39,519 nt of DNA. It comes from Herbiconiux sp. (GTDB taxonomy: Bacteria; Actinomycetota; Actinomycetes; Actinomycetales; Microbacteriaceae). Numbering within the stretch: the stretch's first letter is position 1; each line of letters starts with the position of its first letter. The stretch is taken from contig NZ_JAHFUY010000030.1 of assembly GCF_023264895.1 (NCBI RefSeq), positions 1-39,519 of the forward strand, read 5' to 3'. Shown here in pieces: positions 15,288 to 31,303 of this stretch. Both the position numbers and the translations under genes were made by a program. Under the pieces are notes generated by a model, which saw nothing but the letters and a program-made list of their open reading frames with translations, did no database searches and had not been told where the DNA came from.

Positions 15288-15295
15288 GCCCGCCG

Positions 15296-16147: not shown

Positions 16148-17286
16148 TGGCCACGCTGCGGGTGATCATCGACCAGCTGGTCGCCCCCGTACCAGGCGGA
16201 ATCGGTCGCTACACGCTCGAACTCACGCGTCAGCTGATCGCCACGGCGCCGCGCAACTGCGACGTCGAGGGCATCATCTCGGCGGTGCCGCAGGAGAAGG
16301 CCGACGAGGTGTCGGCCAAGCTCCCAGGGCTCGCAGACCTGCACCGCGCGACCCTGCCGCGGCGTGAGCTGTCGGCTGCCTGGCAGCACGGCATCATCGG
16401 CGGATCGGGCGGCGGCATGGTGCACGCCACGAGCCTCCTCGCGCCCATGCGCAAGCATGACCGGCGGGCCGAACTCGGCACGCAGACGGCCGTGACGATC
16501 CACGACGTGGTGCCGTGGACGCATCCGCAGACCCTCACGCCCCGCGGCGTCACCTGGCACAAAGCGATGGCCAAGCGGGCGTCGAAGCACGCCGACGCCA
16601 TCGTGGTGCCCACGCACGCCGTGGCCGAGGAGCTCTCGCACTACTTCGACTTCGGCGACCGGATCCGCGTGATCGGCGGGGCCGTGAGCGACGAGCTGCG
16701 GCTGCCGACCGATCCGGAGGCCCGCATCGAGGCTCTCGGGCTGCCGGAGAAGTACATCCTCGCCGTGGGCACCCTCGAGCCCCGGAAGGGCCTCGCCGCC
16801 CTCATCAAGGCGCTCTCGCTGCCCGGCACGGGCGACCTGCCGCTCGTGATCGCCGGGCCGGAGGGCTGGGGCGAGGTCGACGTGGCCTCGGTCGCCGCCG
16901 CCGCCGGCGTCGATGCCTCGCGCGTCAAGGTGCTGGGCTTCGTGAGCGACAGCGACCTCGCCCTCGCCCTCGAGCGCGCCACCGTCTTCGTCTACCCCTC
17001 CCTCGCCGAGGGCTTCGGCCTCCCGCTGATCGAGGCCTTCAACTTTGGCACCCCCGTCATCCACGCCGACGTCCCCGCCCTCCTCGAGGTCGCCGCAGGC
17101 TCGACGTTCGTCGTCGACCGCACCACCCCGGATGCGTATGCGGGGCAGCTCGCGTCGGCGATCGAGGCGGTCACGGGCGACGCCGCACTGCGACGGCGCC
17201 TGTCGATCTCGGGACTCGATCGCGCGCGGGCGTTCTCGTGGCGGGACTCGGCCGACAAGGTGTGGCAGCTTCACGCTGACCTCTAG
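16147..17286 (+). CDS. GT4 family glycosyltransferase
   Basis: 379 residues; ATG 16147 overlaps the rmlD stop (TGATG). GT-B fold: N-terminal APVPGGIGRYTLEL glycine loop, TAVTIHDVVPWTHP, AIVVPTHAVAEEL, then ILAVGTLEPRKGLAALIKAL and the donor-site VYPSLAEGFGLPLIEAF with the EX7E pair. Adjacent to rmlBD, it is a good candidate rhamnosyltransferase (context only); in mycobacteria the rhamnosyltransferase wbbL sits beside rmlD. The TAG stop at 17284-17286 abuts repeat element A. Confidence 0.9.
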   Translation: MATLRVIIDQLVAPVPGGIGRYTLELTRQLIATAPRNCDVEGIISAVPQEKADEVSAKLPGLADLHRATLPRRELSAAWQHGIIGGSGGGMVHATSLLAPMRKHDRRAELGTQTAVTIHDVVPWTHPQTLTPRGVTWHKAMAKRASKHADAIVVPTHAVAEELSHYFDFGDRIRVIGGAVSDELRLPTDPEARIEALGLPEKYILAVGTLEPRKGLAALIKALSLPGTGDLPLVIAGPEGWGEVDVASVAAAAGVDASRVKVLGFVSDSDLALALERATVFVYPSLAEGFGLPLIEAFNFGTPVIHADVPALLEVAAGSTFVVDRTTPDAYAGQLASAIEAVTGDAALRRRLSISGLDRARAFSWRDSADKVWQLHADL

Positions 17287-17371
17287 CCGCGCCGCCGCCT
17301 CTGCGGCGCGGGCGACATGCGGTGCCGGTGTCTGGCCGCGTCGCTTCGCGGCGCGTCCAGGCACCGGTACC
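17287..17371 (+). repeat. Structured repeat element, copy A
   Basis: Begins at the base after the upstream stop codon. Hairpin 1: CCGCGCCGC (17287-17295), 7-base loop, GCGGCGCGG (17303-17311), nine perfect pairs. Linker GCGACATGC (17312-17320). Hairpin 2: GGTGCCGGTGTCTGG (17321-17335) with CCAGGCACCGGTACC (17357-17371), fifteen pairs of which two are G-U, capped by CGTCGC-TTC-GCGGCG (17339-17353). The 3' tail shared by copies B-E is not recognisable in A. Confidence 0.85.
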
Positions 17372-17391
17372 GCCCCGGGCTGAGAAACAAT

Positions 17392-17447
17392 GGCCCGCGG
17401 CTTTCAAACCCGCTCCTACCTCATGGGAGATACGAACGTAGCGGGCC
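17392..17447. repeat. Inverted repeat between elements A and B
   Basis: GGCCCGC (17392-17398) and GCGGGCC (17441-17447) are perfect inverted arms with 42 bp between. They link the ends of the two oppositely oriented elements, so the whole 17287-17551 region can fold on itself. The right arm is also part of the tail of element B. Confidence 0.5.
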
Positions 17448-17551
17448 GTACTCGACGACCCGGAGCGTTACACCTGCCGGGGCGCGCCGCGAAGCGACGT
17501 GACCCGACAGGTGCAACGCATGTCGCCCGCGCCGCAGAGGCGGCGGCGCGG
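17430..17551 (-). repeat. Structured repeat element, copy B
   Basis: Minus-strand copy facing A. Hairpin 1 arms at 17551-17543 and 17535-17527, linker complement at 17526-17518, hairpin 2 arms 17517-17503 (GTTGCACCTGTCGGG) and 17481-17467 (CCCGGCAGGTGTAAC). The stem differs from A at many bases yet pairs fully with two G-U positions. A tail resembling GGGTCGGCGAGTAGGGCC follows to about 17430. Hairpin 1 starts 25 bases after the stop of the LCP gene, on the same strand. Confidence 0.85.
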
Positions 17552-17576
17552 AAAGAATCCTGCCGGCGCGATGGAA

Positions 17577-18998
17577 CTAGCCCGCTGGCGCTTCCGTCGC
17601 CGTAGACAGCACCAGCGCATCCGCGACTGTCTGCTGCACCAGGGCCCAGTCGGGGTACTCCGGGTCGATCAGCGGGGGCGTGAGCTCCACGTGGTCGATG
17701 GGGAGGTCCTTGGTCTTCAGGGCGAGGTCGATGAAGTAGCTGAGGGTCGACTGGGGGATGTCGGTCTGCACCACCTGGGTACCGGCCTGCACGATGCCCT
17801 CGAACTTGGTGAGCACGTTGACCGGCTCGAACTGGTTGAGGATGGCCGTCTGCAGTTCGCGCTGGCGCTCCATCCGGTCGTAGTCGCTCGTGGTGTGGCG
17901 CGAGCGGGCGTACCAGAGGGCCGTGTAGCCGTCCATGTGCTGCACCCCGGGCCAGATCCAGCCCTCGACCTCGTTGAGGTTCTCGTCGCCGCCCATGGGC
18001 AGCTCCTCCTTGACGTCGATCGTCACGCCGCCGAGGGCGTCGATGAGGTCCGAGAAGCCCTGCATGTCGATCATCACGTAGTACTGGATGGTGAGCCCGA
18101 GAGCGCCCTCGATGGCATCCTTCGTGGCCTCGACGCCGGGGTTGGAGCCCTCGGCCTCGGCGTTCGGGTACAGGTCCTGGTTGAACGCCATCACGCGGGG
18201 GTAGAGGAAGCTCACCTGGCAATCGCTGCCGCAGTCATAGACGCCGTCGGGCGCGTACTCCGAGCCGACGAGGGGCGAGTCCGCGGCGATCGGCACCTGC
18301 TGCAGGTCGCGCGGGATGCCGATCATGGTGGCACGTCCGGTGTCGGCCTCGATCGAGACCACGGTCATGCTGTCGGGGCGCATGCCGTCCCGATCCGGGC
18401 CCGCGTCGCCGCCGAGCAGCAGGATGTTGTAGCGGCCGTTCACGGGCGGCTCCGCGGCCGCCTGCACGTTGAAGACCGAGGCGAGGCCCGACTGGGCGAC
18501 GTTGGCGATGTACGCCGCCGCTCCGGCACCACCGGCGGTGACCACCATGAGCAGCACCGAGAAGATCGCGATGGCGGGACGTGCCCGCGGACCCACCCGC
18601 ACCAGACGCACGAGCCGCAGCGCATCCAGGGTCAGCACGACCCAGAGCACGGCGTAGGCCACGAGGAGAACCTGCACGATCACGAGCGGCACGAGGTTGG
18701 TGGCGATCGAGAAGATGACCTGCGGCCAGATGAAGTAGATGACGCCGGCGATGATCGCGAGCGCCCACAGCACGAGCGTGCAGCCCAGGCCGAAGCGCCC
18801 GAGCCGGCGGTTGCCCGCGAGCACCTGGGCCGAGCCCGGGATGAGCACGTTGAGCACCACGAGCCACCAGCCGCGCACCGTCATCGCCTTGGGCGAGGAG
18901 GTGTCGGGATAGCGGATCGGGCTCGCGGTGGCGTTGGCCGACGGCGAACCGGTCTGGTATCGGCTCCGAGTGGCGGGGCCTGCGGTCATGCTGGTCAT
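17577..18998 (-). CDS. LytR-CpsA-Psr (LCP) family protein
   Basis: 473 residues, ATG 18998 overlapping the purE stop (ATGA). N-terminal ~40 residues cytoplasmic, then about four membrane segments (e.g. [68 protein letters not shown]). The extracellular LCP domain starts near 185: [30 protein letters not shown], and later [20 protein letters not shown], which hold the conserved Asp/Arg residues that bind polyprenyl pyrophosphate. LCP enzymes attach polysaccharides or teichoic-type polymers from lipid carriers to peptidoglycan. Extra membrane helices before the domain are more than the single helix of classical members. It probably anchors the polymer made by the genes to the left. Confidence 0.92.
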
Positions 18999-19504
18999 AG
19001 GCGGGTCTGAAGGTCTTCGTTCTTCTGGGCGACGAGGGCGGCGAGCCCGCTGCGGTAGCGGTCGAGGGCAGCGGCAAGCTCATCATCACCGGTCGAGAGA
19101 ATGCTGACAGCGATGAGGCCGGCGTTCTTCGCGCCGCCGATGGAGACGGTCGCGACAGGGATGCCGGCGGGCATCTGCACGATCGACAGCAGCGAGTCGA
19201 GGCCGTCGAGCTTGGCCAGCGGCACCGGCACGCCGACCACGGGAAGGGTGGTGACACTTGCCAGCATTCCCGGCAGGTGCGCGGCCCCGCCCGCGCCTGC
19301 GATGACGACCTTGAGGCCGCGCTCGCGCGCGGACTTGCCGTAGTCGATCATCTTCTCGGGGGTGCGGTGCGCCGAGACGACCTGCACCTCGTGGGGCACG
19401 CCGAAGTCCTTCAGCACCTGCACGGCGTCGCTCATGACGGAGAAGTCGGAATCCGACCCCATGACGACGCCCACGACGGGGTTGTTCTCGGGCATGGTGC
19501 CCAT
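18995..19504 (-). CDS. purE: N5-carboxyaminoimidazole ribonucleotide mutase
   Basis: 169 residues. Class I PurE: moves the carboxylate of N5-CAIR to C4 giving CAIR in de novo purine synthesis. GSDSDFSVM (16-24), [11 protein letters not shown] (43-53, catalytic His), [11 protein letters not shown] and VGVPVPL are all present. Two in-frame ATGs (19504 and 19495) are possible; GGAG lies 14 bases before the first, which I therefore prefer. It overlaps the LCP gene downstream and is separated from purK by 246 bp. Confidence 0.95.
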
Positions 19505-19750
19505 GGTAGGTGCTGGGTCTCCGGGGGCCCGGTAGCGCGTCGGGCGTGCCGGGAGTGGGTGTGCGGCCGACCGCCCGCCCGGGATGACGACGGAGTTCGA
19601 GGGGCGAAGGCGGGAACGACGGGGCCTCGAGCCCCGCAGCGCCCGAGACTCCGTCGTTTCGGCGTGCCGGAGGGGCTGCTGGGCACGAGGAAAGGCCCGA
19701 GGCCGGACGTGGGCGGGCGGGAGCCGGCCGGGTCGGGACCGGGAGCCGGC
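19505..19750. other. purK-purE spacer with nested inverted repeats
   Basis: 246 bp without a supported gene. Outer arms ACGACGGAGT (19587-19596) and ACTCCGTCGT (19648-19657) are perfect; inside lies CGGGGC-CTCGA-GCCCCG (19620-19636). Further GC-rich palindromes occur near the purK stop, for example GAGCCGGCTC. No T-run follows, so it is not a standard terminator. It could be a processing or attenuation structure in the purK-purE message. Confidence 0.45.
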
Positions 19751-20887
19751 TCAGTACTCGAAGAACGCGGCGGCGGCCCTCGCCCGGAACACGACGTCGT
19801 CGAGCTCCTCGCCCGAGACCGTCACGTGCCCGATCTTGCGGCCGGGGCGGGGCTCCTTGCCGTAGAGGTGGATCTTGGCGGTCGGCTGGTCGGCGGCCGC
19901 CTGCTGCAGCGGAGTGTCGAGATCGCCATCCGTCGGTCCGCCCAGGATGTTGATCATCACCGACCACGGTTCGCGGTGCCCCGTGGCGCCGAAGGGCAGG
20001 TCGAGCACGGCCCGGAGGTGCTGTTCGAACTGGCTCGTGGTGGAGCCGTCGATCGTCCAGTGGCCGGTGTTGTGCGGGCGCATGGCGAGCTCGTTGACGA
20101 GAATGCGCTCATCCGTCGTCTCGAAGAGCTCCACGGCCAGCACGCCGGTGACGCCGAGCTCCTCGGCGATCGTGGTGCCGATGCGGGCGGCCATCTCGGC
20201 GACCTTCCCGGCGGATCCGGGGGCGGGGGCGATGACCTCGGCGCAGACGCCGTTCTTCTGCACCGACTCGACGACGGGCCAGAGGGTCACGTCGCCGCTC
20301 GGCCGCCGGGCCACGAGCTGGGCGAGCTCCCGGCGGAAGTCGACGAGCTCCTCCACGAGCAGCGCTCCCCCGCGGCCGTCCTCGGCGAGGGCGGCGAACC
20401 AGTCCTCGGCCTGATCGGCGGCGGTCACGACGCGCACGCCCTTGCCGTCGTAGCCGCCGCGGGCGGTCTTCACGACGCCGCGGCCGCCGTGGTCGTCGAG
20501 GAAGGCCGCCAGCTCCTCGGGCGTCTCGACCCGCGCCCAGTCGGGCATCGGGATGCCGAGCTCGCGGAGGCGCTCGCGCATCGCGAGCTTGTCCTGGGCG
20601 AACTGCAGGGCGTCGGGGCCCGGATGCACGGCCACACCCTCGGCGACGAGGGCGCGGAGCACGGCCTGGGGCACGTGCTCATGGTCGAAGGTCACGACGT
20701 CGACGGTCTTGGTGAACGCTCGGACGGTCTCGAGGTCGGTGTAGTCGCCGACGCCGGTGGCGGCGATTGCGGCCGACATCCCCTCGCTCTCGGCGAGCAC
20801 GCGGATGTCGATCCCCAGCTCGATCGCGGGCGGCACCATCATGCGCGCCAGTTGTCCGCCACCGATGACGCCTAGTCGATATGTCAC
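19751..20887 (-). CDS. purK: 5-(carboxyamino)imidazole ribonucleotide synthase
   Basis: 378 residues, GTG 20887. ATP-grasp enzyme making N5-CAIR from AIR, bicarbonate and ATP, the step before PurE. N-terminal LGVIGGGQLARMM (4-16), DVVTFDHEHVP, then ATP-grasp elements VVKTARGGYDGKGV, LLVEELVDF (carboxylate), GVLAVELFET and LVNELAMRPHNTGHWTID. The usual PurK E-x-N-E metal site is seen as VELF...VNELA. The frame runs on to 20983 but only across repeat element C. Its start follows TAAACT by seven bases, a leaderless arrangement. Confidence 0.95.
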   Translation of the reverse strand: MTYRLGVIGGGQLARMMVPPAIELGIDIRVLAESEGMSAAIAATGVGDYTDLETVRAFTKTVDVVTFDHEHVPQAVLRALVAEGVAVHPGPDALQFAQDKLAMRERLRELGIPMPDWARVETPEELAAFLDDHGGRGVVKTARGGYDGKGVRVVTAADQAEDWFAALAEDGRGGALLVEELVDFRRELAQLVARRPSGDVTLWPVVESVQKNGVCAEVIAPAPGSAGKVAEMAARIGTTIAEELGVTGVLAVELFETTDERILVNELAMRPHNTGHWTIDGSTTSQFEQHLRAVLDLPFGATGHREPWSVMINILGGPTDGDLDTPLQQAAADQPTAKIHLYGKEPRPGRKIGHVTVSGEELDDVVFRARAAAAFFEY

Positions 20888-20900
20888 GGGGAGGAGTTTA
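20888..20900 (-). promoter_or_regulatory. Probable leaderless promoter of purK
   Basis: TAAACT (20900-20895, minus strand) then seven bases CCTCCCC and GTG at 20887. No Shine-Dalgarno of normal sense is present. The -35 is unclear. Repeat element C begins 30 bp further upstream. Confidence 0.45.
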
Positions 20901-20930
20901 TCTTGTGCGGGTTCCGCCGCTGTGCTGCTT

Positions 20931-21045
20931 CCGCGCCGCCGCTTCTGCGGCGCGGGCGACATGCGGTGCCGCCGTCGTTCCACGTCGCTTCGCGGCGCGG
21001 AACGGCGACGGTACCGCGCTGGGTCGGCGAGTAGGGCCCGTTGCG
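20931..21045 (+). repeat. Structured repeat element, copy C
   Basis: Hairpin 1: CCGCGCCGC (20931-20939) and GCGGCGCGG (20947-20955). Linker GCGACATGC (20956-20964). Hairpin 2: arms 20965-20981 and 20999-21015, seventeen pairs with two G-U and one C-A, capped by CGTCGC-TTC-GCGGCG (20983-20997). Tail GGGTCGGCGAGTAGGGCC follows at about 21020-21037. Unlike the others it does not follow a stop codon on its own strand: it lies between the purK promoter and the 3' end of a leftward gene. Confidence 0.85.
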
Positions 21046-21073
21046 TTCGGTGCCGTGGGGGGCACTCGTGGGG

Positions 21074-23023
21074 TCACTGGGGGAGGTAGGTCTCGAGTTG
21101 GGATTGGACTGCTTCGGAGAGAGTGTTGGGGCCGCCTAGGACGACTATGCGGTAGGGGTTGAGGCGGTCTAGTTGGGCGGCGACCGGGGCCGGGATGGCG
21201 TCCTTCTGGATGAGGAGGACGGGGGCGTCCTCGGCGATTGCTGCCGCTGAGCCGGAGAGGGCGTCGGGGAAGACCGCGCCCGACGCCACGTAGAGCGTGT
21301 AGACGCTTTGCGGGAACGCCCTCGCCGCGACGGCCGCCGAGACTGTGTAGCGGTCGGGGCCGTCTATGCGAACCACGCCGTAGGTGGATTGCAGGGCGGT
21401 GACCACGGACTCGTCGACGGTGTTGGTGCCGCCGAGGACGAAGATCACGCTCGGCTTCAGGCGAGTGATCTCGGCGAGCACGGCGCCCGGCACCTCGTTC
21501 TTCTTGGTGAGGAGCACGGGGCTGCCCTCGAGACCGGCTGCTGCGGATGTGGAGAGCGCGTCGGAGAAGACCGCTCCGGAGGCGAGGTAGACGGTCTGTG
21601 CGCCGTCGGGGAAGGCCGACTCCGATACCGCGGCAGACACCTCGTAGCGGTCCGCCCCGGCCAAGCGCGAGAGCGATCGGGTGTAGTCTCCGAGCGCCTT
21701 CTCCACGGCCTCGCTGACGCTTGCCGTGCCGCCGAGGATGACGATGCGCTGCGGACGCAAAGACTTCAGCCGAGCCGCGACCGCTGCCGGCACGGAGTCC
21801 TTCGACACCAGCAGCACCGGGCCGTGCTGTGCCCCAGCCGCCGCCGACCCCGACAGCGCATCCGCGAACCCACCCCCGGCTGCCACGTAGACCACGGGCA
21901 CGCCGGACGCGAACGTCTCCCCGGCCACATTCGCCGAGACCTCGAACCGATCCGCACCGCTGACCCGGTCGACGGAGGGCAGCGGCCTCGGATTCGGCTG
22001 GAACATGACGACCTCGGAGGGGCGCCATGATCGAGGTGTCTCACCCACGAGGATCCGGTGCGTCTTCGGGTCGACGATGACCGAGTTGAAGTAGTCATTG
22101 GGCCCCGCATCCTCGATCGACAAGTCGGTGGAACGCAGAGTGCTCACTCCACCGATCCCTTCTCCTGAGTCGGTGGCGTAGACAGTGTGGAATGCCGAAT
22201 CCACTGCGATCCCGTTCGGCATACTGCCTAGAGGACGGGAGGTCGCCGTGAGCGACATGGTCTGGAGCGAGAACTTCTCGACGTGCTCCGCAGACGGCCT
22301 ATCGGTCGTGATGAAAAGCGAACCGCCGCCGATCGCGAGAAGATCAGGCCTGTTCTCGAGGGGCCACAGGGTGGTCGAACCGTCCGTGTTCAAGACAGTG
22401 ATCGAGGAGTCGGGCTGGCTCGGCACGTAGGCCTTCCCCGAGTCAGGATCGACGACGACGCCATTCGGCTGAACCCCCACGGCGACCATGCGAGGTGCAG
22501 CAACGCCGGAACCGTCGAGGACACTGACGTTGCCGCTCGTCCGATTCGCCACGAAGACCCGGTTGTTCTTCTCGTCGACGGCGACAGCCCCGGCGAAGGT
22601 CCCGCCAGACGCGACCCGGCTGGTCACTCGGTTCGCGGTGGCGGACTGCGGGTCCACATCCGCCGTGACGATGGTGTCGTTGCCCGCATCCGCAACGTAG
22701 AGCTTGTGCGTGACCTGGTTGACTGCGGCGGCCACAGGGTACGTGAATGCGCCGTCGCTGATGGTCGTCACGAACTCGAAGCTCGATTCGCTGATGTCGT
22801 AGACCTGGACAGCCTTGTTCTTCTGGTCGAGCACGAAGGCGCGCTGGGTGGTGCTGTCGATGGCGATGTCGCTGACGCCATCGCCGAAGGTGTTCGGGGC
22901 GACCGAAGCCAGGCGCTCCAGCCCGAAGTCGCGAGGGGCGGCCTGGGCGGTGGCCCCCAGCCATCCTGCGACGACGAGCACCACGGCACCGGCGGCGAGA
23001 ACGGAGAGTGAGCGGAGGTGCAT
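21074..23023 (-). CDS. Secreted protein with beta-propeller and three cell-wall-binding-2 repeats (copy 1)
   Basis: 649 residues. Signal peptide 1-28 (SVLAAGAVVLVVAG, cleavage after ATAQA). Residues ~35-345 contain repeated YVTN-like blades (KAVQVYDI, HKLYVADAGNDTIV, NRVFVANRTSGNVSVLD, GKAYVPSQPDSSITVL), a probable beta-propeller. Residues 351-450, 451-549 and 550-649 are three cell-wall-binding-2 (PF04122-type) repeats, each with a GADRY/F start, ASGAVFPDALSGSAAA-like centre and IVVLGG end. In other Gram-positives this triple module binds anionic wall polymers, so the protein is probably held on the surface. It is one of a tandem pair; ~70% identical to copy 2 in the propeller and nearly identical in the first ~60 residues and first binding repeat. 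Codon use in the propeller looks less GC-rich than neighbours. Confidence 0.9.
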   Translation of the reverse strand: MHLRSLSVLAAGAVVLVVAGWLGATAQAAPRDFGLERLASVAPNTFGDGVSDIAIDSTTQRAFVLDQKNKAVQVYDISESSFEFVTTISDGAFTYPVAAAVNQVTHKLYVADAGNDTIVTADVDPQSATANRVTSRVASGGTFAGAVAVDEKNNRVFVANRTSGNVSVLDGSGVAAPRMVAVGVQPNGVVVDPDSGKAYVPSQPDSSITVLNTDGSTTLWPLENRPDLLAIGGGSLFITTDRPSAEHVEKFSLQTMSLTATSRPLGSMPNGIAVDSAFHTVYATDSGEGIGGVSTLRSTDLSIEDAGPNDYFNSVIVDPKTHRILVGETPRSWRPSEVVMFQPNPRPLPSVDRVSGADRFEVSANVAGETFASGVPVVYVAAGGGFADALSGSAAAGAQHGPVLLVSKDSVPAAVAARLKSLRPQRIVILGGTASVSEAVEKALGDYTRSLSRLAGADRYEVSAAVSESAFPDGAQTVYLASGAVFSDALSTSAAAGLEGSPVLLTKKNEVPGAVLAEITRLKPSVIFVLGGTNTVDESVVTALQSTYGVVRIDGPDRYTVSAAVAARAFPQSVYTLYVASGAVFPDALSGSAAAIAEDAPVLLIQKDAIPAPVAAQLDRLNPYRIVVLGGPNTLSEAVQSQLETYLPQ

Positions 23024-23059
23024 GGAGATGAGATTATCTCATCAGCACGTCGGTGTCAG
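23024..23059 (-). promoter_or_regulatory. Leaderless promoter overlapping a palindrome (copy 1)
   Basis: Minus strand: -35 CTGACA (23059-23054), 17-bp spacer, -10 TAATCT (23036-23031), seven bases, ATG 23023. The palindrome ATGAGATTATCTCAT (23028-23042) covers the -10. The same arrangement is conserved at 25247-25282. A regulator bound to the palindrome would block transcription. Confidence 0.6.
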
Positions 23060-23229
23060 CCTCGGGTGGGGATCGGGTGCTCGGTGAGGGCGCCCAGGAG
23101 GTCGGCCGTGAGGCGGGCCGAGGGGATGTCGTGGAGGACGACGGTGAGGTCGGGGCCCGCGGTGACGCGGATGTCGCCGGAGGCGGCCGCCGCCTGGAAG
23201 GGGGTGCGGCGGAGGCGGACGTCGGTGAC
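23056..23229 (-). pseudogene. 3' remnant of the PH-domain gene
   Basis: 58 codons including the stop, nearly identical to the end of the intact gene at 25279-26088 (offset 2223 bp), encoding TDVRLRRTPFQAAAASGD through EHPIPTRG. Similarity ends abruptly at 23229. There is no start, so it is a by-product of the tandem duplication. The next 70 bp (23230-23299) match nothing else I see here. Confidence 0.85.
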
Positions 23230-23299
23230 GAGTGCGGCATGGGTGTCGAGGTGGATCGACGAAGAGGGTCTGTCGCCGGTGATGCGGTCATTCAGTGAA

Positions 23300-25246
23300 T
23301 CAGTCGGGGAGGTAGGACTCCAGTTGCGATTGGACCGCGCCTGAGAGTGTCTTGGCTCCGCCGAGGACGACTATGCGGTAGGGGTCGAGGCGGTCGAGTT
23401 CGGCGGCGACCGGAGCCGGGATGGCGTCCTTCTGCACGAGCAGGATCGGGGCATCTTCTGCGATGGCGGCAGCCGAACCCGAGAGGGCGTCCGGGAACAC
23501 CGCGCCCGACGCCACGTAGACCGTGTAGACGCTCTCCCGGAACGATCTCGCCGCCACACCCGCCGACACCTCGTAGCGGTCGGCGCCGTCGATCCTCACG
23601 ACCGGCCAGCGTTGCTGCAGCATGGCGATCACCGACTCGTCGATCGTGCTCGTGCCGCCGAGCACGACGATCAGGCTCGGCCGCAACCCGCCGAGCTCCG
23701 TGAGGACGTCGGGCGGCACCTCGTTCTTCTTCGTCAGCAGCACGGGGCTCCCTTCGAGGCCGGCGGCAGCGGATGCCGAGAGAGCATCGGAGAAGACTTC
23801 CCCGGATGCCAGATAGGCGACCTCAGCCCCGTCGCGGAAGGCCGCCGCCGAGACCGCTACCGAGACGGAGTAGCGGTCTGCGCCGGCCAACCGCGAGACC
23901 GAGTCGCTGTAGTCGCTGAGCGCTCTCTCGACGCCCGCACTGATGCTCGCGGTGCCCCCCAGGATGACGATCCGCTGTGGACGCAACGACTTCAGGCGGG
24001 TTGCGACCGCTGCAGGCACCGAGTCCTTCGAGACCAGCAGCACCGGGCCGTGCTGGGCGCCAGCCGCCGCCGACCCCGACAGCGCGTCTGCGAACCCACC
24101 GCCGGCCGCCACATAGACCACGGGCACGCCGGACGCGAAAGTCTCCCCGGCGATATTCGCCGACACCTCGAATCGATCCCCGCCGTCGATTCGGTCGACG
24201 GACGGGAGCGGCCGGGGATTCGGCCGGAACATGACGACCTGTGAAGGGCTTCCGAAGCGCGGGGTCTCACCGACCAGGATCCGGTGCGTCGTCGGCTCGA
24301 CGACGACGGAGTTGAAGTAGTCCTCAGAGCCTGTGCCCTCTGGCGACAGGTCCGTGACTCTCAGAGCAGTGATGCCACCGATCCCTCCTGCGGCATGAGC
24401 CGCGTACACGACGTGAAGAGCTTCGTCGACGTCGATGTCGTTGGGCAGACTGCCGAGAGGTGGCGACGCCGCCACCAGGGTTCCACTCTCCAGCGAGAAT
24501 CTCTCGAGGTGCGCCGCATATGGTCTGTCCGTCGCAGTGACCAGCGATCCGGCGCTGACCGCCAGCTGATCCGGGCGGTGGTCAAGAGGCCAGAGTGTGG
24601 TGGAACCATCCGGGTTCAAGACGGTGATCGTCGAGTCGAGTTGGCTCGAGACGTAAGCTTTCGCGGTCTCCGGGTCGACGACGACGTCCCTCGGCTCCAG
24701 CCCGACGGGCACCAAGCGAGGCAGGACGGTGCCGGCCCCGTCCATGACGCTCACGTTCTGACTGGATCGGTTGACGACGAAGACCCGATCGTGGGTTTCA
24801 TCGACTGCGACTGCTCCGACGGATGTTCCGCCTGAGGGTATCCTGCTCGTCACGGTATCCGCCGTGGCCGACTCGGGATCGACGTCCACCGTGGCGATGG
24901 TGTCGCTGATCGCATCCGCGACGTAGAGCGTGTGGGTGACCTCGTTCACTGCGGCGGCGATCGGGTAGGTGAAGCCGCCGTAGATGGTGACCACGAACTC
25001 GAAGCTGGGTCCGCTGATGTCGTAGACCTGGACCGCCTTGTTCTTCTGGTCCAGGACGAAGGCGCGCTGGGTGGTGCTGTCGATGGCGATGTCGCTCACG
25101 CCATCACCGAAGGTGTTCGGGGCGACCGAAGCCAGGCGCTCCAGCCCGAAGGCGCGAGGGGCCGCCTGGGCCGTGGCCCCCATCCCTCCGGCGACGACGA
25201 GCACCACGACACCGGCGGCGAGAATGGAGAGCGAGCGAAGCTGCAT
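23300..25246 (-). CDS. Secreted protein with beta-propeller and three cell-wall-binding-2 repeats (copy 2)
   Basis: 648 residues, paralogue of the gene at 21074-23023 with the same layout: signal peptide (SILAAGVVVLVVAGGMGATAQA), propeller-like blades (KAVQVYDISGPSFEF, HTLYVADAISDTIATVDV, DRVFVVNRSSQNVSVMD) and three cell-wall-binding-2 repeats from ~350. Substitutions cluster in the propeller and in the second and third repeats; the first ~65 residues and the first binding repeat are almost unchanged. That mosaic suggests gene conversion between copies or selection for divergence of the exposed part. Placed between PH and PH remnant by the tandem duplication. Confidence 0.9.
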   Translation of the reverse strand: MQLRSLSILAAGVVVLVVAGGMGATAQAAPRAFGLERLASVAPNTFGDGVSDIAIDSTTQRAFVLDQKNKAVQVYDISGPSFEFVVTIYGGFTYPIAAAVNEVTHTLYVADAISDTIATVDVDPESATADTVTSRIPSGGTSVGAVAVDETHDRVFVVNRSSQNVSVMDGAGTVLPRLVPVGLEPRDVVVDPETAKAYVSSQLDSTITVLNPDGSTTLWPLDHRPDQLAVSAGSLVTATDRPYAAHLERFSLESGTLVAASPPLGSLPNDIDVDEALHVVYAAHAAGGIGGITALRVTDLSPEGTGSEDYFNSVVVEPTTHRILVGETPRFGSPSQVVMFRPNPRPLPSVDRIDGGDRFEVSANIAGETFASGVPVVYVAAGGGFADALSGSAAAGAQHGPVLLVSKDSVPAAVATRLKSLRPQRIVILGGTASISAGVERALSDYSDSVSRLAGADRYSVSVAVSAAAFRDGAEVAYLASGEVFSDALSASAAAGLEGSPVLLTKKNEVPPDVLTELGGLRPSLIVVLGGTSTIDESVIAMLQQRWPVVRIDGADRYEVSAGVAARSFRESVYTVYVASGAVFPDALSGSAAAIAEDAPILLVQKDAIPAPVAAELDRLDPYRIVVLGGAKTLSGAVQSQLESYLPD

Positions 25247-25282
25247 GGAGATGAGATTATCTCATCAGCATGCCGATGTCAG
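25247..25282 (-). promoter_or_regulatory. Leaderless promoter overlapping a palindrome (copy 2)
   Basis: Minus strand: CTGACA (25282-25277), 17-bp spacer, TAATCT (25259-25254), seven bases, ATG 25246. Palindrome ATGAGATTATCTCAT at 25251-25265. The -35 overlaps the stop codon of the PH gene. Confidence 0.6.
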
Positions 25283-26088
25283 CCTAGGGTGGGGATCGGG
25301 TGCTCGGTGAGGGCGCCGAGGAGGTCGGCCGTGAGGCGGGCCGAGGGGATGTCGTGGAGGACGACGGTGAGGTCGGGGCCCGCCGTGACGCGGATGTCGC
25401 CGGAGGCGGCCGCCGCCTGGAAGGGGGTGCGGCGGAGGCGGACGTCGGTGACTCGAGCGAGGTAGAGGTCCTGGCGGTCGCGCACGAAGAGGCCTCGGCG
25501 GGCGATGATGCGGCGGGTGGTGACCGTGTAGCGGTGGCCGAGCCAGGCGAAGAAGGGCAGCAGCGTTCCGAAGAAGACGAGCGCACCGGCCGCGGCGAGC
25601 GCCGCCCAGTTCTGCCATTCCTCGACGAAGCGTCCGCCGAACCAGCCGTAGGCCGCCGCCGTGGCGAAGAGGATCAGCACCGGGAACGTGAGGCGGCGGG
25701 CATGCGGTCGCACGCGCACGAGGATGGCCTCGGGCGTCGGCTCGACCGCGGTGGTGTAGCCGCCGTAGCCCGGGTGGCCGGAAGACGGGTCGCCCCTGCC
25801 GTCGTCGCCGTGGGTGCCCGGATCGGTGTCGCCGAAGCCTAGGTCGGCGAATCCGGGCTCAGCCAAACCAGGCTCAGCGAACCCGGGCTCAGCAAATCCG
25901 GGCTCAGCGAACCCAGGCCCACCACCGGCCCCCGGCCCCCCGGGGTAAGGAGGCGGCACCGGATACGGCACCCGCTCGGGCTGCGGCGGCACAGGATACC
26001 GCGTGGTGCGCTGGTCGGCGTCGGACGGGGATCCGGCCGCACCCCACCCGAACCGCTCGGTGGCGTCGGAGGAGGGGCGCGGGGTCAT
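25279..26088 (-). CDS. PH-domain (bPH2-type) membrane protein
   Basis: 269 residues, ATG 26088, 11 bp after birA. Residues 1-115 are Pro/Gly-rich and disordered, with a PGFAE tandem repeat at about 58-82. Two membrane segments follow (134-150, 162-182), then a bacterial PH domain (186-265: RYTVTTRRIIARRGLFVRDRQDLYLARVTDVRL). The equivalent position in mycobacteria, next to birA, is also held by a PH-domain membrane protein, so the partner relation is old. Function unknown; the domain may bind lipid or protein at the inner membrane face. Its last 58 codons were copied into 23056-23229. Confidence 0.85.
   Translation of the reverse strand: MTPRPSSDATERFGWGAAGSPSDADQRTTRYPVPPQPERVPYPVPPPYPGGPGAGGGPGFAEPGFAEPGFAEPGLAEPGFADLGFGDTDPGTHGDDGRGDPSSGHPGYGGYTTAVEPTPEAILVRVRPHARRLTFPVLILFATAAAYGWFGGRFVEEWQNWAALAAAGALVFFGTLLPFFAWLGHRYTVTTRRIIARRGLFVRDRQDLYLARVTDVRLRRTPFQAAAASGDIRVTAGPDLTVVLHDIPSARLTADLLGALTEHPIPTLG
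25840..25917 (-). repeat. 15-bp tandem repeat encoding PGFAE
   Basis: About five imperfect 15-bp units inside the PH gene encode PGFAE, PGFAE, PGFAE, PGLAE and PGFAD. The units differ mainly at third codon positions. Such a coding minisatellite is prone to copy-number change without frameshift. Confidence 0.8.
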
Positions 26089-26099
26089 GCCCTCATTCT

Positions 26100-26960
26100 T
26101 TACCGGGAATCTCCGATTCCGCTGTCGTCGTGCCGGAGGTGCGTCACATCGCCCGCCGAGACCACGAGCGGCGCCTGGCCGTCCGGCAGCTCCACGACGA
26201 GCCGCCCGCCCTCGTCGAGCGACCGCGCGACACCCCGCCGCACGACCCCGCCCGGAAGCTCCACCTTCACCGCGCGGCCGAGCGTGACCGACATCCGCAC
26301 CGCGTCGTCGAGCACCCCGCTCGCCACCGCATCGCCCCCGGATGCCCGCCAACGGTCGTAGAGCACGGTCAGGTCGTGCAGGTAGCCGGCGAGCACCGCA
26401 TCCGGATCGATCTCCTGCACACCGGCGAGCAGCAGCGACGTGGCGGTCGGCACCGGCAGCTGCTCCTCGGTGAGCGTGAGGTTGACGCCCGCCCCGATCA
26501 CGAGACCCGACGCATCCGGAAGCAGCTCGCCCAGGATGCCGGACACCTTGCGGCTGCCGATGAGCACGTCGTTTGGCCACTTGAGCCCCACGGGGACGGC
26601 GCTCCGGTGCGCGAGCCCGTGCACCACCTGCGCCATGGCGATGCCCGCCAGGAGCGGCAGCACCCCCCAGCGCTCGACCGGCACGGCGCGCCCCTCGTCG
26701 TCGTGCGGGCGCAGCAGCACCGAGATGGCGAGCGACGAACCGGCCGGAGCGCTCCAAGTGCGACCGAGCCTGCCCTTGCCGGCGGTCTGGTCGTCGGTGG
26801 CGACCACGGCGAGATCCGGCCACTCCGCCGCCGACGGACCGGCCGCCGCCTGCGCGAGCACCTCGTTCGTCGACCCGGCCCTGGCCATCCACTCGAACCG
26901 CGACGCCGTCGCCGACGACAGCGGGAAACGGGGATGCGGAGCTCGATGAGGCAGATGCAT
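26100..26960 (-). CDS. birA: Biotin-[acetyl-CoA-carboxylase] ligase
   Basis: 286 residues, ATG 26960. Attaches biotin to the carrier domain of acyl-CoA carboxylases in two steps through biotinyl-AMP. Biotin/ATP loop [18 protein letters not shown] (around 60-77), [19 protein letters not shown] (about 128-146) and GAGVNLTL are intact. There is no N-terminal DNA-binding domain, so it is a group I, non-repressor enzyme. It is divergent from accD, whose complex is its substrate, and is followed closely by the PH gene. Confidence 0.94.
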
Positions 26961-27043
26961 GCCGCCAAGCTACCCGACCGCGCCCGGCTGTTGGAGGTTT
27001 CGGCAACGAAGGGGCGGGAGGGGTGGCCGGTAGAGTGAACGGC
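26961..27043. promoter_or_regulatory. Divergent leaderless promoters birA / accD
   Basis: On the minus strand TAGCTT (26972-26967) is six bases before the birA ATG. On the plus strand TAGAGT (27031-27036) is seven bases before the accD GTG at 27044. Neither start has a ribosome-binding sequence at useful distance. The -35 elements are not clear. Confidence 0.5.
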
Positions 27044-28648
27044 GTGAGTGAAGACGCGACGACCGACCAGCCCGACATGTACACGACGGCGGGCAAGCTG
27101 GCCGACCTGAAGAACCGTTACCACGAGGCGGTGACGGCCTCCGGGGCCGCCGCCATCGAGAAGCAGCACAAGCGCGGCAAGAAGACCGCCCGCGAGCGCA
27201 TCGAGCAGCTGCTCGACCACGGCAGCTTCGTGGAGATCGACGAGTTCGTGCGCCACCGCACCCACGCCTTCGGCATGGAGAAGTCGCGGCCCTACGGCGA
27301 CGCCGTCGTCACGGGCACCGGCACCATCCACGGCCGCCAAGTGGCCGTCTACGCCCAGGACTTCACGATCTTCGGCGGATCGCTCGGCGAGGTCGCCGGC
27401 GAGAAGATCATCAAGGTCATGGACCTCGCGCTGAAGACGGGCGTTCCGATCATCGGCATGCTCGACTCGGGCGGCGCACGCATCCAGGAGGGTGTCGTGG
27501 CGCTCGGCAAGTACGGCGAGATCTTCCGCCGCAACACGGCCGCGTCGGGGGTCATCCCGCAGATCTCCATCATCATGGGCCCGGCGGCCGGCGGTGCCGT
27601 CTACTCCCCCGCCCTCACCGACTTCGTGATCATGGTCGACAAGACCAGCCAGATGTTCGTCACGGGTCCGGATGTCATCAAGACCGTCACCGGCGAAGAC
27701 GTCGGCATGGAGGAGCTCGGCGGCGCGCTCACCCACAACAGCGTCTCGGGCGTCTCCCACTACCTCGCGAGCGACGAGGACGACGCGCTCGACTACGCCC
27801 GCGCCCTGCTCAGCTTCCTGCCGCAGAACAACCTGGCCGAGCTCCCCTCCTACGACAGCGAGGTCGAGCTCGAGATCACGGATGCGGACCGCAAGCTCAA
27901 CACGATCATCCCGGATTCGCCCAACCAGCCCTACGACGTGCACACCGTCATCGAGCACCTCGTCGACGGCGGCGAGTTCCTCGAGACCCAGCCGCTGTAC
28001 GCCCCCAACATCGTGGTGGGCTTCGCGCGGATCGAGGGCCGGAGCGTCGGCATCGTCGCCAACCAGCCGAGCCAGATGGCAGGCACGCTCAACATCGAGG
28101 CCGGCGAGAAGGCCTCCCGCTTCGTGCGGTTCTGCGACGCGTTCTCGATCCCGATCCTCACCCTCGTCGACGTGCCCGGCTACCTGCCCGGCACCGACCA
28201 GGAATGGACGGGCGTCATCCGGCGCGGCGCGAAGCTGCTCTACGCCTACGCCGAGGCGACCGTGCCGCTCGTGACCGTCATCCTCCGGAAGGCCTACGGC
28301 GGCGCGTACATCGTGATGGGCTCAAAGCAGCTCGGTGCCGACATCAACCTCGCCTGGCCCACGGCCGAGATCGCGGTGATGGGCGGTCAGGGCGCCGTCA
28401 ACATCCTCTACCGCGGCGAGATCAAGCGCGCCGAGGAGGCGGGCGAAGACGTCGCGGCCGTGCGCACCCGCCTCGCCAACGAGTACACCTACAACGTGGC
28501 GAGCCCCTTCCTCGCGGCCGAACGAGGCGAACTCGACGGCGTCATCGAGCCGGCGGCCACCCGCGTAGCCATCACGAAGGCCCTCCGAGCCCTCAAAACC
28601 AAGCGCGCATCACTCCCCCCGAAGAAGCACGGCAACATCCCGCTGTAG
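27044..28648 (+). CDS. accD: Acyl-CoA carboxylase, carboxyltransferase beta chain
   Basis: 534 residues from GTG 27044. Carboxyltransferase subunit that moves CO2 from carboxybiotin to acetyl- or propionyl-CoA, giving malonyl- or methylmalonyl-CoA. The two crotonase-like halves are complete: [67 protein letters not shown]-like [15 protein letters not shown], and [15 protein letters not shown]. Residue 423 (Ile in GAYIVMG) is the site that in Streptomyces separates broad (Ile) from propionyl-selective (Asp) enzymes, as I recall it. The epsilon subunit gene normally next door is 5.2 kb away at 33878. Repeat element D follows 20 bp after the stop. Confidence 0.95.
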
Positions 28649-28668
28649 CCCACCCCCAGGGCCCACAC

Positions 28669-28785
28669 CACGCAACAGGCCCTACCCGCCGACCCAGAGC
28701 GATACCGTCGCCGGATGACGCCGCGCAGCGACGTCATCCGACGCCGGCATCGCATGTCGCCTGCGCCGCACGAGGGGCGGCGCAG
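28669..28785 (-). repeat. Structured repeat element, copy D
   Basis: Minus strand. Hairpin 1 arms CTGCGCCGC/GCGGCGCAG (28785-28777 and 28769-28761): relative to A-C one C-G pair has become T-A on both arms. Linker complement 28760-28752. Hairpin 2 spans 28751-28701, about twenty pairs with one mismatch, capped by CGTCGC-TGC-GCGGCG. Tail to 28669. Only about six differences from copy E over ~117 bp. It starts 37 bp after the stop of the flavin-monooxygenase gene, same strand, between two convergent genes. Confidence 0.85.
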
Positions 28786-28822
28786 CAAAAACACCCTCAC
28801 ACCCCGCGCACACCTCCGCCGA

Positions 28823-30025
28823 TCACAGGAACGGCGTCCCCGCCTCCTGCCCCGCCAGCACCCGCCCGTGCACCTCGAAGTTCGTGTTGATCGCCAGTGC
28901 CGCATGCAACGACAGTGCATCCAGATCCCGATGGATGCGCTGGATCGGCACCGAGCGCTGGATCGCCGACGCGCTCGAGATGTCGAACAGGGTGCGCACC
29001 GCCCGGCGCGCGAGCCGCACCACCTGGGAGCACTGCCCGCGGATCTCGGCGCGCTCGAACACGCTCAGGTCGCGGCCTGTCTCCGCGGCCTCCGTGAGGC
29101 GGCGGGCGAGATCGTCGCGCAGCAGCTCGGCGGCCTTGATGTCGGTCGCGGCCGAGGCGAGCTCGACGTGGGTGATCTGCGCCTCGGCCTGCACCCACGA
29201 GGTGTAGGTGATCTTCCGGCCCGGCAGCCGATCGAGGAACGCGTCGAGCGCACCCTGGGCGGCACCCACCGGTGCGCCCATGCTGTTCACGAGCACCGTG
29301 GGGAAGAACGCCGCCTTGTAGAGCGAGGAGTCCTTCGTGGCTTCGGAGAGATTGAGGCCACCGAGCGCCTCCATGAGCGGCAGCGTGCGGTGCTCGGGCA
29401 CGAAGACGTCGTCGGCCACGACGGCGTTGCTTCCGGTGCCGGCGAGACCCGAGGGATCCCAGTCGTCCTCGATCCTGAGCTCCTCCATCCGCACGAGCGG
29501 CAGGAGCATGCGGGGCGGCCCGCCCGCGGTGGCGCCCTCGTCGACGGCCGCGGCGAGCGCATCCCACGCCGCAGAACGGCATCCGGTGTTGAAGGGCCAT
29601 CGGCCGCTCAGCCGGTACCCGCCCTCGACCGGGGTGAGCGTTCCGCCCGGGCTGAAGATGGCGGCCACGCGGGTGTCGGGGCTCGTGAAGACCTCGCGCT
29701 GCGCCTCGTCCGGGTAGTGGCCCACGAAGTAGGTGCCGACGGTGTGCAGCGAGCAGACCCAGGCGGTCGAGAGGTCGGCGCGGCCGATGGCCGAGAGGAT
29801 GCGCACCTGGTCGGTGAGCGGCGCCTCGAGGCCGCCGTAGCCCACGGGAGCGGTGAGGCGGAAGACGCCGGCCCGCTCGAGCAGCCCGATCGACTCCTCG
29901 GGCACGCGGTGCTCGGCCTCGGCGCGCGCCGCGTTCTCGCGGAGCGCCCCCTGGATGCGCTCGACGGCGCGCAGCACGTCGTCTCCCGACGCGATCGTGG
30001 TGGTGGCGGGTGCGGTGATGGTCAT
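28823..30025 (-). CDS. Acyl-CoA dehydrogenase-fold flavin monooxygenase
   Basis: 400 residues, ATG 30025 with GGAGGAG upstream. The fold is that of acyl-CoA dehydrogenases, but it resembles the group D flavin-dependent monooxygenases (HsaA/HpaB/DszC type): an N-terminal helical part (ERAGVFRLTAPVGYGGLEAPL), a middle beta part (GGYRLSGRWPFNTGCRSAAWDAL, GTGSNAVVADDVFVPEHRT) and a C-terminal four-helix bundle ending in QRIHRDLDALSLHAALAIN, where the H-R-D near the end fits this group. Such enzymes use FMNH2 or FADH2 from a separate reductase, which is not in the window. The divergent AraC regulator suggests induction by an unknown substrate. A plain acyl-CoA dehydrogenase is less likely. Confidence 0.8.
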   Translation of the reverse strand: MTITAPATTTIASGDDVLRAVERIQGALRENAARAEAEHRVPEESIGLLERAGVFRLTAPVGYGGLEAPLTDQVRILSAIGRADLSTAWVCSLHTVGTYFVGHYPDEAQREVFTSPDTRVAAIFSPGGTLTPVEGGYRLSGRWPFNTGCRSAAWDALAAAVDEGATAGGPPRMLLPLVRMEELRIEDDWDPSGLAGTGSNAVVADDVFVPEHRTLPLMEALGGLNLSEATKDSSLYKAAFFPTVLVNSMGAPVGAAQGALDAFLDRLPGRKITYTSWVQAEAQITHVELASAATDIKAAELLRDDLARRLTEAAETGRDLSVFERAEIRGQCSQVVRLARRAVRTLFDISSASAIQRSVPIQRIHRDLDALSLHAALAINTNFEVHGRVLAGQEAGTPFL

Positions 30026-30203
30026 GGCGGTCTCCTCCGTTGCAGTGCCGGTGCCGCGACGCTAGTCGCACGCACCGCGTCGACTCGATCCGATTCCGGC
30101 AGGCGGCATCCGGATCCGGCAGCCGATCCGGTTGAGATCGCGCCCACCGCGTGCGCATAATGCTGGGACACCAGCCCGTCCGACGATGCACGACGAGGTG
30201 CCG
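30026..30203. promoter_or_regulatory. Divergent promoter region with AraC-type operator repeats
   Basis: For the rightward regulator: TTGAGA (30132-30137), 18-bp spacer, CATAAT (30156-30161). Two direct repeats, TCCGGCAGGCG (30095-30105) and TCCGGCAGCCG (30115-30125), lie 20 bp apart, just upstream of that promoter and facing both genes; AraC proteins typically bind such two-turn repeats. The ribosome sites GGAGGAG (leftward gene) and GAGG (ahead of ATG 30204) are clear. Confidence 0.55.
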
Positions 30204-31166
30204 ATGGAATCGATCCGGCCGCTCCGCGCCTTCCCGGTCGTCGCCGCCTCCGACCCCGACGACGTGTACCGGGCCGCCGCGAAGCTGATGAGCAGGCACC
30301 GGATGCACCTGCCCCAGCGCACGACCACCATGCGGGCCCGCATCCAGGCGGCTCAGCTCGAGACCTCGGCGCTGCTGTGGTTCGAGTACTGCACGCCCAC
30401 CGAGATCTTCTCCGATCCGCTCGAGGGCTACTCCACGGTCCACGTGCCGATGGCCGGGCACCTCGAGGTCGAGCACGACGGCGACTGGCACCCCGTGAGC
30501 ACGGGCACGGGCGCGGTCTTCTCCGAGGGCAGCCCCGTGCGGATGCGCTGGAGCGGCGACCTGAGACTCCTGGTGGCCCGCATCGACCAGACGGCCCTCC
30601 TCGAGCGCCTCGGCCGCCTCACCCGGGTCGACTCCCGCCCGCTCGTCTTCTCCCCCTTCCTCGACCGCCAGGGCGCGGGCGGTGCCGTCACCGGAGCCGT
30701 CATCGCCGCGAGCCGGGCCGTCGAATCGGCGGGCGGCTCCGGTCTCGATCCTCGGATCGCACGGCACTTCGACGATGCCCTCGTCAGCGCCCTCCTGCTG
30801 GGCCACGGCCACACCTATACCGACGACCTCCTCGCCCCGGTCGCCCTTCCCTCACCACGCGTCATCCGCACGGTCGTCGACCACCTCGAGGCCCACTACG
30901 CCTCCGACCTCACCGCGGCCGACCTCGCCCGAGTCGCCGGAGTCTCCCAGCGCTCCCTGCACGACGCCTTCCACCGCCGCTTCGGCATGAGCCCCCTCCG
31001 CTACCTCCGCGACCTGCGCCTCGACCGAGCCCGAGCGGCCCTCCAGTCAGACCCCACCGCCACGGTGGCATCCGTAGCCCCCGCAGTCGGCTTCCCCCAT
31101 CTCAGCCGCTTCGCCGCAGCCTACAGAGCCCGCTTCGGCGAACCCCCGCACCGAACCTCTCGCTGA
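30204..31166 (+). CDS. AraC/XylS family transcription regulator
   Basis: 320 residues from ATG 30204, which has GAGG at proper distance; the ATG at 30186 lacks one. Residues ~1-190 form an AraC ligand-binding-like domain (STVHVPMAGHLEVEHDGDWHPV, VFSEGSPVRMRWSGDLRLLVARID). The C-terminal ~100 residues are the double helix-turn-helix: LTAADLARVAGVSQRSLHDAFHRRFGMSPLRYLRDLRLDRAR, then VASVAPAVGFPHLSRFAAAYRARFGEPP. The domain pair is typical of activators of aromatic or alkane catabolic genes, so it probably activates the divergent flavin monooxygenase gene (inference). Confidence 0.9.
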   Translation: MESIRPLRAFPVVAASDPDDVYRAAAKLMSRHRMHLPQRTTTMRARIQAAQLETSALLWFEYCTPTEIFSDPLEGYSTVHVPMAGHLEVEHDGDWHPVSTGTGAVFSEGSPVRMRWSGDLRLLVARIDQTALLERLGRLTRVDSRPLVFSPFLDRQGAGGAVTGAVIAASRAVESAGGSGLDPRIARHFDDALVSALLLGHGHTYTDDLLAPVALPSPRVIRTVVDHLEAHYASDLTAADLARVAGVSQRSLHDAFHRRFGMSPLRYLRDLRLDRARAALQSDPTATVASVAPAVGFPHLSRFAAAYRARFGEPPHRTSR

Positions 31167-31186
31167 CCCCACCCCCGCGGCACCAC

Positions 31187-31303
31187 CACGTAACAGGCCC
31201 TACTCGCCGACCCAGAGCGATACCGTCGTCGGATGACGCCGCGCAGCGACGCCATCCGACGCCGGCATCGCATGTCGCCTGCGCCGCACAGGGGGCGGCG
31301 CAG
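31187..31303 (-). repeat. Structured repeat element, copy E
   Basis: Minus strand, beginning at the base after the stop codon of the gene at 31304. Hairpin 1 arms 31303-31295 and 31287-31279, linker complement 31278-31270, hairpin 2 31269-31219, tail to about 31187. Against copy D one stem T-G pair is T-A and one A-T pair is G-T, so pairing is kept. D and E are direct repeats bracketing the flavin-monooxygenase and AraC genes. Confidence 0.85.

Follow-up and report, generated by a model that had tools for sequence, protein, structure and literature searches.

Structured repeats dispersed at the 3′ ends of genes are described here from the genus Herbiconiux, starting from a stretch of 39,519 nt of a Herbiconiux sp. 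assembly (GCF_023264895.1, contig NZ_JAHFUY010000030.1; C146:1-39519 in our numbering), called the window below. The genome to which it belongs (own genome, G000) comprises 3,953,348 bases in 168 contigs and is 92% complete. The window holds five copies, A to E, of an arm that measures about 100-125 nt without hairpin 0 (HP0) and whose modules follow the order HP0 (optional), hairpin 1 (HP1), the octamer GCGACATG, hairpin 2 (HP2) and a tail; the linker between the two main hairpins can be written HP1-GCGACAUG-HP2. In the reading that we favour, and to which we give about an even chance, these are structured repeats specific to Herbiconiux, with a tail-to-tail dyad at gene 3′ ends as their full unit, REPIN-like and non-autonomous, serving as a terminator or as a structure of the 3′ untranslated region (3′-UTR).

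The repeats form a family restricted to the genus. A blastn search with copy C against the own genome gave 47 matches at E ≤ 10, and the 14 best of these ranged from E 1.2e-60 (the query itself) to 5.2e-22, which places the family far above chance; a regular-expression scan of the own-genome loci found 36 copies. Alignment A1 contains 32 of them, after exclusion of four that are truncated, tandem or odd, and falls into 14 copies with a long HP2 and 18 with a short one, that is, without the inner extension. The covariance model was built on A2, in which these 32 copies carry shorter flanks, and returned 42 matches in the own genome at E ≤ 0.01 among the best 150 candidates. Across 60 genomes at E ≤ 1e-4, it was positive in 15 of the 16 Herbiconiux genomes (own included) and in none of the 44 others, with 0 (G001), 1, 1, 7, 15, 16, 16, 19, 23, 28, 38, 41 (own), 43, 45, 54 and at least 60 matches per Herbiconiux genome. 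G013 has a single, weak match (E 9.4e-5), and G009 has one match at this threshold and two in a family-wide scan of 398 genomes at E ≤ 1e-3. At least 11 genomes were positive in that wider scan, ten from Herbiconiux and one other with a weak match (G253, E 5.5e-4); the best nine candidates per genome were scored, so that weak relatives could escape it. An exact 31-base pattern, which fits the commoner HP1 type only, was found in 29 stretches of the GTDB contig set, all from Herbiconiux; H. solani is among the carriers of the element. The covariance search of this genome and other Microbacteriaceae proposed in the first-pass annotation recovered a repeat family of Herbiconiux. The remark made there, that no named family with these features was known, agrees with zero Rfam matches at gathering scores in the window, and a permissive Rfam scan (E up to 1, four loci) gave three sub-threshold matches, all to miRNA families. 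A plasmid search with the element gave no match, and a phage search a single 29-nt match (E 8e-3) that we take as chance. No publication describing the element was found in a literature search, which is weak evidence with most subscription papers outside its coverage, and Herbiconiux is unmentioned in the covered part of the text of PMC12306157.

Several copies depart from the usual module order. Two of them (L005 1661-1755 and L024 1323-1423, both on the minus strand) retain HP1 and GGGGACATG and have a wholly different HP2, alike in both; the genes that they adjoin resemble each other at their ends. HP1 is duplicated in tandem, with or without the linker and at 42-53 nt spacing, in L020, L107, L129 and L009. 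In G009, positions 2124-2297 of L213 are a tandem array of 2.8 copies of a 63-nt unit (97% matches) that consists of HP1, the linker and half of HP2, and this array occupies the gene end where the own genome has copy A.

The complete unit is probably the inverted pair, or dyad, as judged from the arrangement of neighbouring copies. Pooling gave 128 matches, of which four odd or duplicate rows were dropped and seven identical ones merged, leaving 117 copies. Wherever two of these lie within 450 nt of each other, they are tail to tail (23 of 23 pairs, none head to head or in tandem); the 23 pairs include orthologs from the own genome and Herbiconiux oxytropis (G004) and hence are not 23 independent events. 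Paired copies number 46, copies A and B forming one such dyad, and the other 71 of the 117 stand outside any close pair. Two more tail-to-tail arrangements are found beyond the 23, one in L083 with a spacer of 825 nt and one in L005 with an unusual partner HP2. An autonomous element between the arms was considered and rejected, since the spacer in L083, the longest, contains no transposase recognisable by eye, hidden Markov models not being used. The fullest form is L057, in which HP0-HP1-linker-HP2-tail is mirrored between two gene ends.

The tails of partner arms are complementary to each other. Their predicted hybridisation exceeds that of random copies from the same genome, the observed mean being reached in 8, 5 and 2 of 500 draws according to extension length, and a run of at least four A precedes the tail stem in 11 of the 46 paired copies vs 1 of the 71 single ones. 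Some central stems fold strongly, for example those of L078 and L013. The paired tails of a few dyads are similar to bidirectional intrinsic terminators: the centres in L007, L078 and L096 carry runs of five A and five T and resemble textbook cases, and several other centres have neither an A-run nor a T-run.

The position of the copies relative to genes was determined with a simple codon-position gene caller for 81 of 87 matches, one duplicate and five matches on too-short loci being dropped. The element lies at gene 3′ ends: 43 copies are in convergent gaps, 20 in codirectional gaps in sense orientation, 18 in codirectional gaps in antisense orientation, and none in divergent gaps. By comparison, a similar caller gave 368 gaps of at least 100 nt in about 1.17 Mb of the H. 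oxytropis genome, of which 89 are convergent, 171 codirectional and 108 divergent. The probability of finding none of 81 copies in a divergent gap would be 6e-13 for independent copies, and the copies are not wholly so, as paired copies and orthologs are included. In 18 of the 63 cases with an upstream sense gene, HP1 starts between -1 and 7 nt past its stop codon. The earlier suggestion of a 3′-UTR RNA element finds partial support: divergent gaps are avoided, but both orientations occur in codirectional gaps.

All five window copies were found where the first-pass annotation had placed them (Table 1). The sequence GCGACATGC occurs five times in the window, each time within one of copies A-E, vs a mean of 0.97 and a maximum of 3 in 100 shuffles of the window. 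In every copy HP1 folds as described there, with 9 bp and a 7-nt loop (copy D gains one extra inner pair in the fold), followed by HP2; the replacement of C-G by T-A in HP1 of copies D and E can be seen in the sequences, as can the HP2 arms of A and B, which differ from each other and are each self-complementary. Other details needed revision. HP2 is indeed a hairpin, but instead of the 15-20 bp given, it has as many as 24 aligned pairs (15 outer and 9 inner) within 55 nt in all five copies. The tail, assigned to copies B-E only, is also present in copy A in diverged form, so that the element extends past 17371, and the covariance-model match for this copy spans C146:17284-17405. The linker, described as invariant, is so inside the window; beyond it, GCGACATG is exact in 94 of the 117 copies, with variants that include GGGACATG, GCGGCATG and GCTACATG.

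Table 1. Copies of the Herbiconiux repeat in the window and the centre of the dyad formed by copies A and B.
Feature	Position	Strand	Parts
Copy A	17287..17409	+	HP1 17287-17311; linker GCGACAT 17312-17318; HP2 17319-17373; diverged tail 17374-17409
Copy B	17430..17551	-	HP1 17551-17527; linker 17526-17520; HP2 17519-17465; tail from 17464-17441 onward
A/B dyad centre	17392..17447	n/a	tail arms GGCCCGC (17392-17398) and GCGGGCC (17441-17447), pairing possible
Copy C, single (locus L001)	20931..21046	+	HP1 20931-20955; linker 20956-20962; HP2 20963-21017; tail 21018-21046
Copy D, single	28669..28785	-	HP1 28785-28761; linker 28760-28754; HP2 28753-28699; tail 28698-28669
Copy E, single	31187..31303	-	HP1 31303-31279; linker 31278-31272; HP2 31271-31217; tail 31216-31187

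Copy A begins immediately 3′ of the TAG stop of a glycosyltransferase gene, and copy C is antisense to both of its neighbours, the start of purK at the left and the stop of a CWB2 gene at the right. Copies D and E lie in gaps between convergent genes, the former between carboxyltransferase and acyl-CoA dehydrogenase genes, the latter between an AraC-type regulator gene and an LPG-synthase-like gene. A sixth copy follows on the same contig past the window end (C146:44092-44212). Three further features of these surroundings were noted. The neighbouring genes for CWB2 (PF04122) cell-wall-binding proteins at 21074-23023 and 23300-25246 (minus strand) share three 300-nt blocks that are 76-91% alike and represent a duplication, and an open reading frame contains short tandem repeats of 15 nt at 25833-25921. 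In congeners, another long palindrome lies 3′ of the carboxyltransferase gene (L142, L144 and L139, with a related one in L134); it has a shared core around CTCCCGCCTAAGGGTTGAGCGGAGCTCAAAGGCGGCGGGAG and variable outer arms, is perhaps a second gene-end repeat family, and occurs in congeners that lack the HP1-HP2 element directly there or that have the palindrome beside it.

The history of individual loci was followed by mapping 31 own loci on part of the H. oxytropis genome, which placed 14 with at least one flank and 13 with both. Seven of the 13 have the same arrangement in both genomes (L002, L004, L006, L007, L010, L028 and L055). Copy E is shared with H. oxytropis at the orthologous place. 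Three of the 13 differ in arrangement: L014 is a dyad in H. oxytropis and, in the own genome, a single arm accompanied by the lost arm's tail, while at L018 and copy D the arms have opposite orientations in the two genomes, as after reciprocal loss. Apparent deletion scars are found in H. oxytropis at L022 and L057, the clear case being L057, where the own genome has the full dyad, including HP0 in each arm, and the counterpart is reduced to HP0 and part of HP0′. The place of copy C is occupied in H. oxytropis by unrelated DNA with no element. Behind the glycosyltransferase gene that adjoins copy A, the element is also present in G002, G004, G005 and G014. The four window loci were also compared with the syntenic regions of 15 congeners, two of which ended at contig ends, and outside H. 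oxytropis these regions are too diverged for insertion borders. Since the readable differences over the 13 loci look like deletions, loss was dominant between the own genome and H. oxytropis, gain was not caught, and the dyad is likely to be the ancestral state.

Both hairpins covary, as the first-pass annotation had proposed. In A1, 141 cells are changed on both sides with pairing kept, compared with 45.9 (sd 7.3) after shuffling, and none of 500 shuffles reached 141. Alignment A3, drawn from the own genome and its congeners (87 matches, of which 86 are distinct) and fitted to the model, a procedure that favours the model's structure, gave 326 such cells vs 95.9 (sd 7.2); neither shuffle control takes account of descent. 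A tree-aware G-test was therefore used in place of R-scape, with a FastTree tree, parsimony substitutions placed on random columns and 60 null alignments. It yielded 14 pairs at E < 0.05, of which nine belong to the 34-pair structure (three in HP1, six in HP2), three adjoin HP1 pairs and two lie elsewhere. A hairpin inside the tail (HP3) is paired in 95.2% of cells and has no significant pair in this test. A linker/tail helix around HP2 and HP3, attractive in single folds, was dropped, as many copies break it (80.5% of its cells are paired) and no pair is significant.

Covariation fits the claim of selection on structure, not just on sequence, but this claim is unproved, because paired changes could also result from quasi-palindrome copying, in which template switching during replication or repair matches the arms within hairpins and the repeats are neutral debris at gene ends. 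We regard this explanation as unlikely. In its favour, HP2 arms change wholesale yet stay matched, copy B and its ortholog (G000 vs G004) differ by a swap of the whole HP1 type, and both orientations occur in codirectional gaps. It is also favoured by the orthologs. Among 360 stem cells of 12 orthologous copies from the own genome and H. oxytropis, 342 are unchanged, 3 compensatory, 2 changed on one side but paired, and 10 broken (of the rest, one is restored, one lacks pairing in both genomes and one is unaligned), although 5 of the 10 broken cells come from L002, where H. oxytropis apparently has HP1 of the other type and the copies may be misaligned. The strand asymmetry of the pairs is unexpected from a strand-blind process: on the sense strand, HP1 and HP2 of the 86 rows of A3 contain 173 G.U vs 35 A.C cells, which suggests that the GCGACATG-bearing strand is the one that folds, and 83 of the 86 rows retain one U.G pair close to the tip of HP2. 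This argument is softened by the concentration of 163 of the 173 G.U cells in four columns (a single column holds 23 of the 35 A.C cells) and by the orthologs, in which changes more often involve A.C than G.U and the commonest single change is from C-G to C.A. The octamer, mostly unpaired, is conserved too, which also weighs against copying within hairpins.

The exact conservation of the linker in most copies, beside variable stems, would suit a protein-binding RNA or DNA module, with the octamer between the hairpins as the site of a regulator or an RNase and the copies as a 3′-end regulon. We hold this to be fairly improbable. A copy number between 0 and at least 60 among congeners is unlike a regulon, and so are the different arrangements that two close species show at 3 of 13 loci; in addition, 18 of the 81 copies lie antisense within codirectional gaps. 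A true REP/REPIN family dependent on a Y1 (RAYT) transposase for its movement, or else an element of the IS200/IS605 or TnpB-guide type, would account for the extragenic inverted doublets accompanied by remnant-like singlets, which are also reported for REPINs, where the doublet is the unit and singlets are its remnants (PMC3116915, in the part available). It is nevertheless very improbable on the distribution of the genes concerned. The Y1 profile PF01797, whose search recovered the family in 5 of 14 control genomes, E. coli among them, has no match in the own genome or in any of the 15 element-bearing Herbiconiux genomes, and its one match among the 16 is in G001, the genome free of copies; the RAYT/IS200 driver, mobilisation by which the first-pass annotation had considered, was rejected on this ground, and the TnpB/omega-RNA driver on that of PF07282, found in 0 of 16. 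That a structured RNA was spread by reverse transcription, an idea to which we give hardly any credence, would be in keeping with a repeat that is structured and strand-asymmetric. The profile RVT_1 was found in 3 of the 16 genomes, G001 (0 copies), G009 (1-2 copies) and G008 (23 copies), and had no match in the own genome, a distribution unlike that of a driver, and this candidate was likewise rejected. The other element-bearing genomes agree with the 92%-complete own genome on Y1 and PF07282, and on the reverse transcriptase with the exceptions of G008 and G009.

The favoured reading of a REPIN-like dyad can be set out as follows. Two inverted tail-to-tail arms would occupy a gap 3′ of one gene or between convergent genes, and the tails of both arms would pair into a central stem that, in the few dyads with A and T runs, is terminator-like. 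The dyad may have spread as a non-autonomous REPIN-like element by means of some enzyme, with copies persisting at gene 3′ ends, where they would be harmless; many may have been retained as a hairpin stack that ends or protects transcripts, and single copies would be decayed dyads. Mobility, termination and retention by selection are steps that we infer, and a number of results weigh against them. Partner arms are not clearly alike, contrary to the expectation for REPINs: the observed partner similarity was reached in 150 of 1000 draws for HP1, 37 for HP2, 15 for the tail and 103 for the outer tail alone. Only 5 of 23 dyad centres have a T-run of at least five on the plus strand, and 4 have an A-run of that length. 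A terminator scan of positions 15000-32000 of the window gave 5 sites vs 2.9 in shuffles, with a weak terminator-like site at the A/B centre (17410-17392, minus strand) and none at copies C, D or E; a promoter scan of the same region gave a single promoter-like site (0.8 expected), which lies apart from the copies. No insertion with an empty site or a target duplication, such as a MITE of a DDE transposon would leave, was seen in the 13 mapped loci, where the differences from H. oxytropis are deletion-like or unalignable, and no driver gene was found in searches that covered Y1, reverse transcriptase and TnpB. The excess of broken over compensated cells in orthologs is evidence against a strict selection reading.

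Among known repeats, REP sequences measure about 20-35 nt, and REPINs have a lineage-limited copy number, a trait that the Herbiconiux element shares. The Herbiconiux arm is longer, contains a conserved octamer besides its two or three hairpins, and has stems that vary with covariation. REP/BIME sequences are often situated between convergent genes (PMC1525189), and the Herbiconiux element resembles REPIN/BIME in this, in being extragenic and in its apparent unit and singlets; this and the comparisons that follow draw on the available parts of the cited papers. It is best filed as working like REPIN/BIME, with a possible terminator function, rather than as a member of that group, since a search for the transposase that defines it gave no match in the element-bearing genomes. 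Like the Herbiconiux element, BOX is not known to have a driver. By description the two share a modular, structured and interspersed nature, with modules in variable number. In streptococci the modules of BOX are boxA-boxB(n)-boxC (PMC3049150), whereas here they are HP0, HP1, linker, HP2 and tail in an inverted dyad. SPRITE and inverted uptake-signal pairs resemble or pair into intrinsic terminators (PMC3049150, PMC2267715), as the Herbiconiux repeats may do when paired, but here only the tails form a terminator-like stem, the remainder of the arm being GC hairpins without a T tract. ERIC, of comparable length (about 127 bp) and also predicted to fold, is one long stem-loop said to act in Yersinia as RNA hairpins (PMC2267715), unlike the several hairpins with conserved spacers of a repeat restricted to one actinobacterial genus.

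In a bolder version that we consider decidedly doubtful, the repeats would represent a new class of dyad-symmetric, structure-selected mobile elements that insert at gene 3′ ends and bring a bidirectional terminator with them; the enzyme that moves them would be none of Y1, reverse transcriptase and TnpB, and HP1-octamer-HP2 would be the recognition module in single-stranded RNA or DNA. If the favoured reading is true, an actinobacterial genus would possess REPIN-like dyads without RAYT, and a repeat family would be a source of terminators for convergent genes. Comprising tens of paralogs and spread over more than ten species, the family offers an unusually clear set in which to separate selection on structure from hairpin-templated repair.

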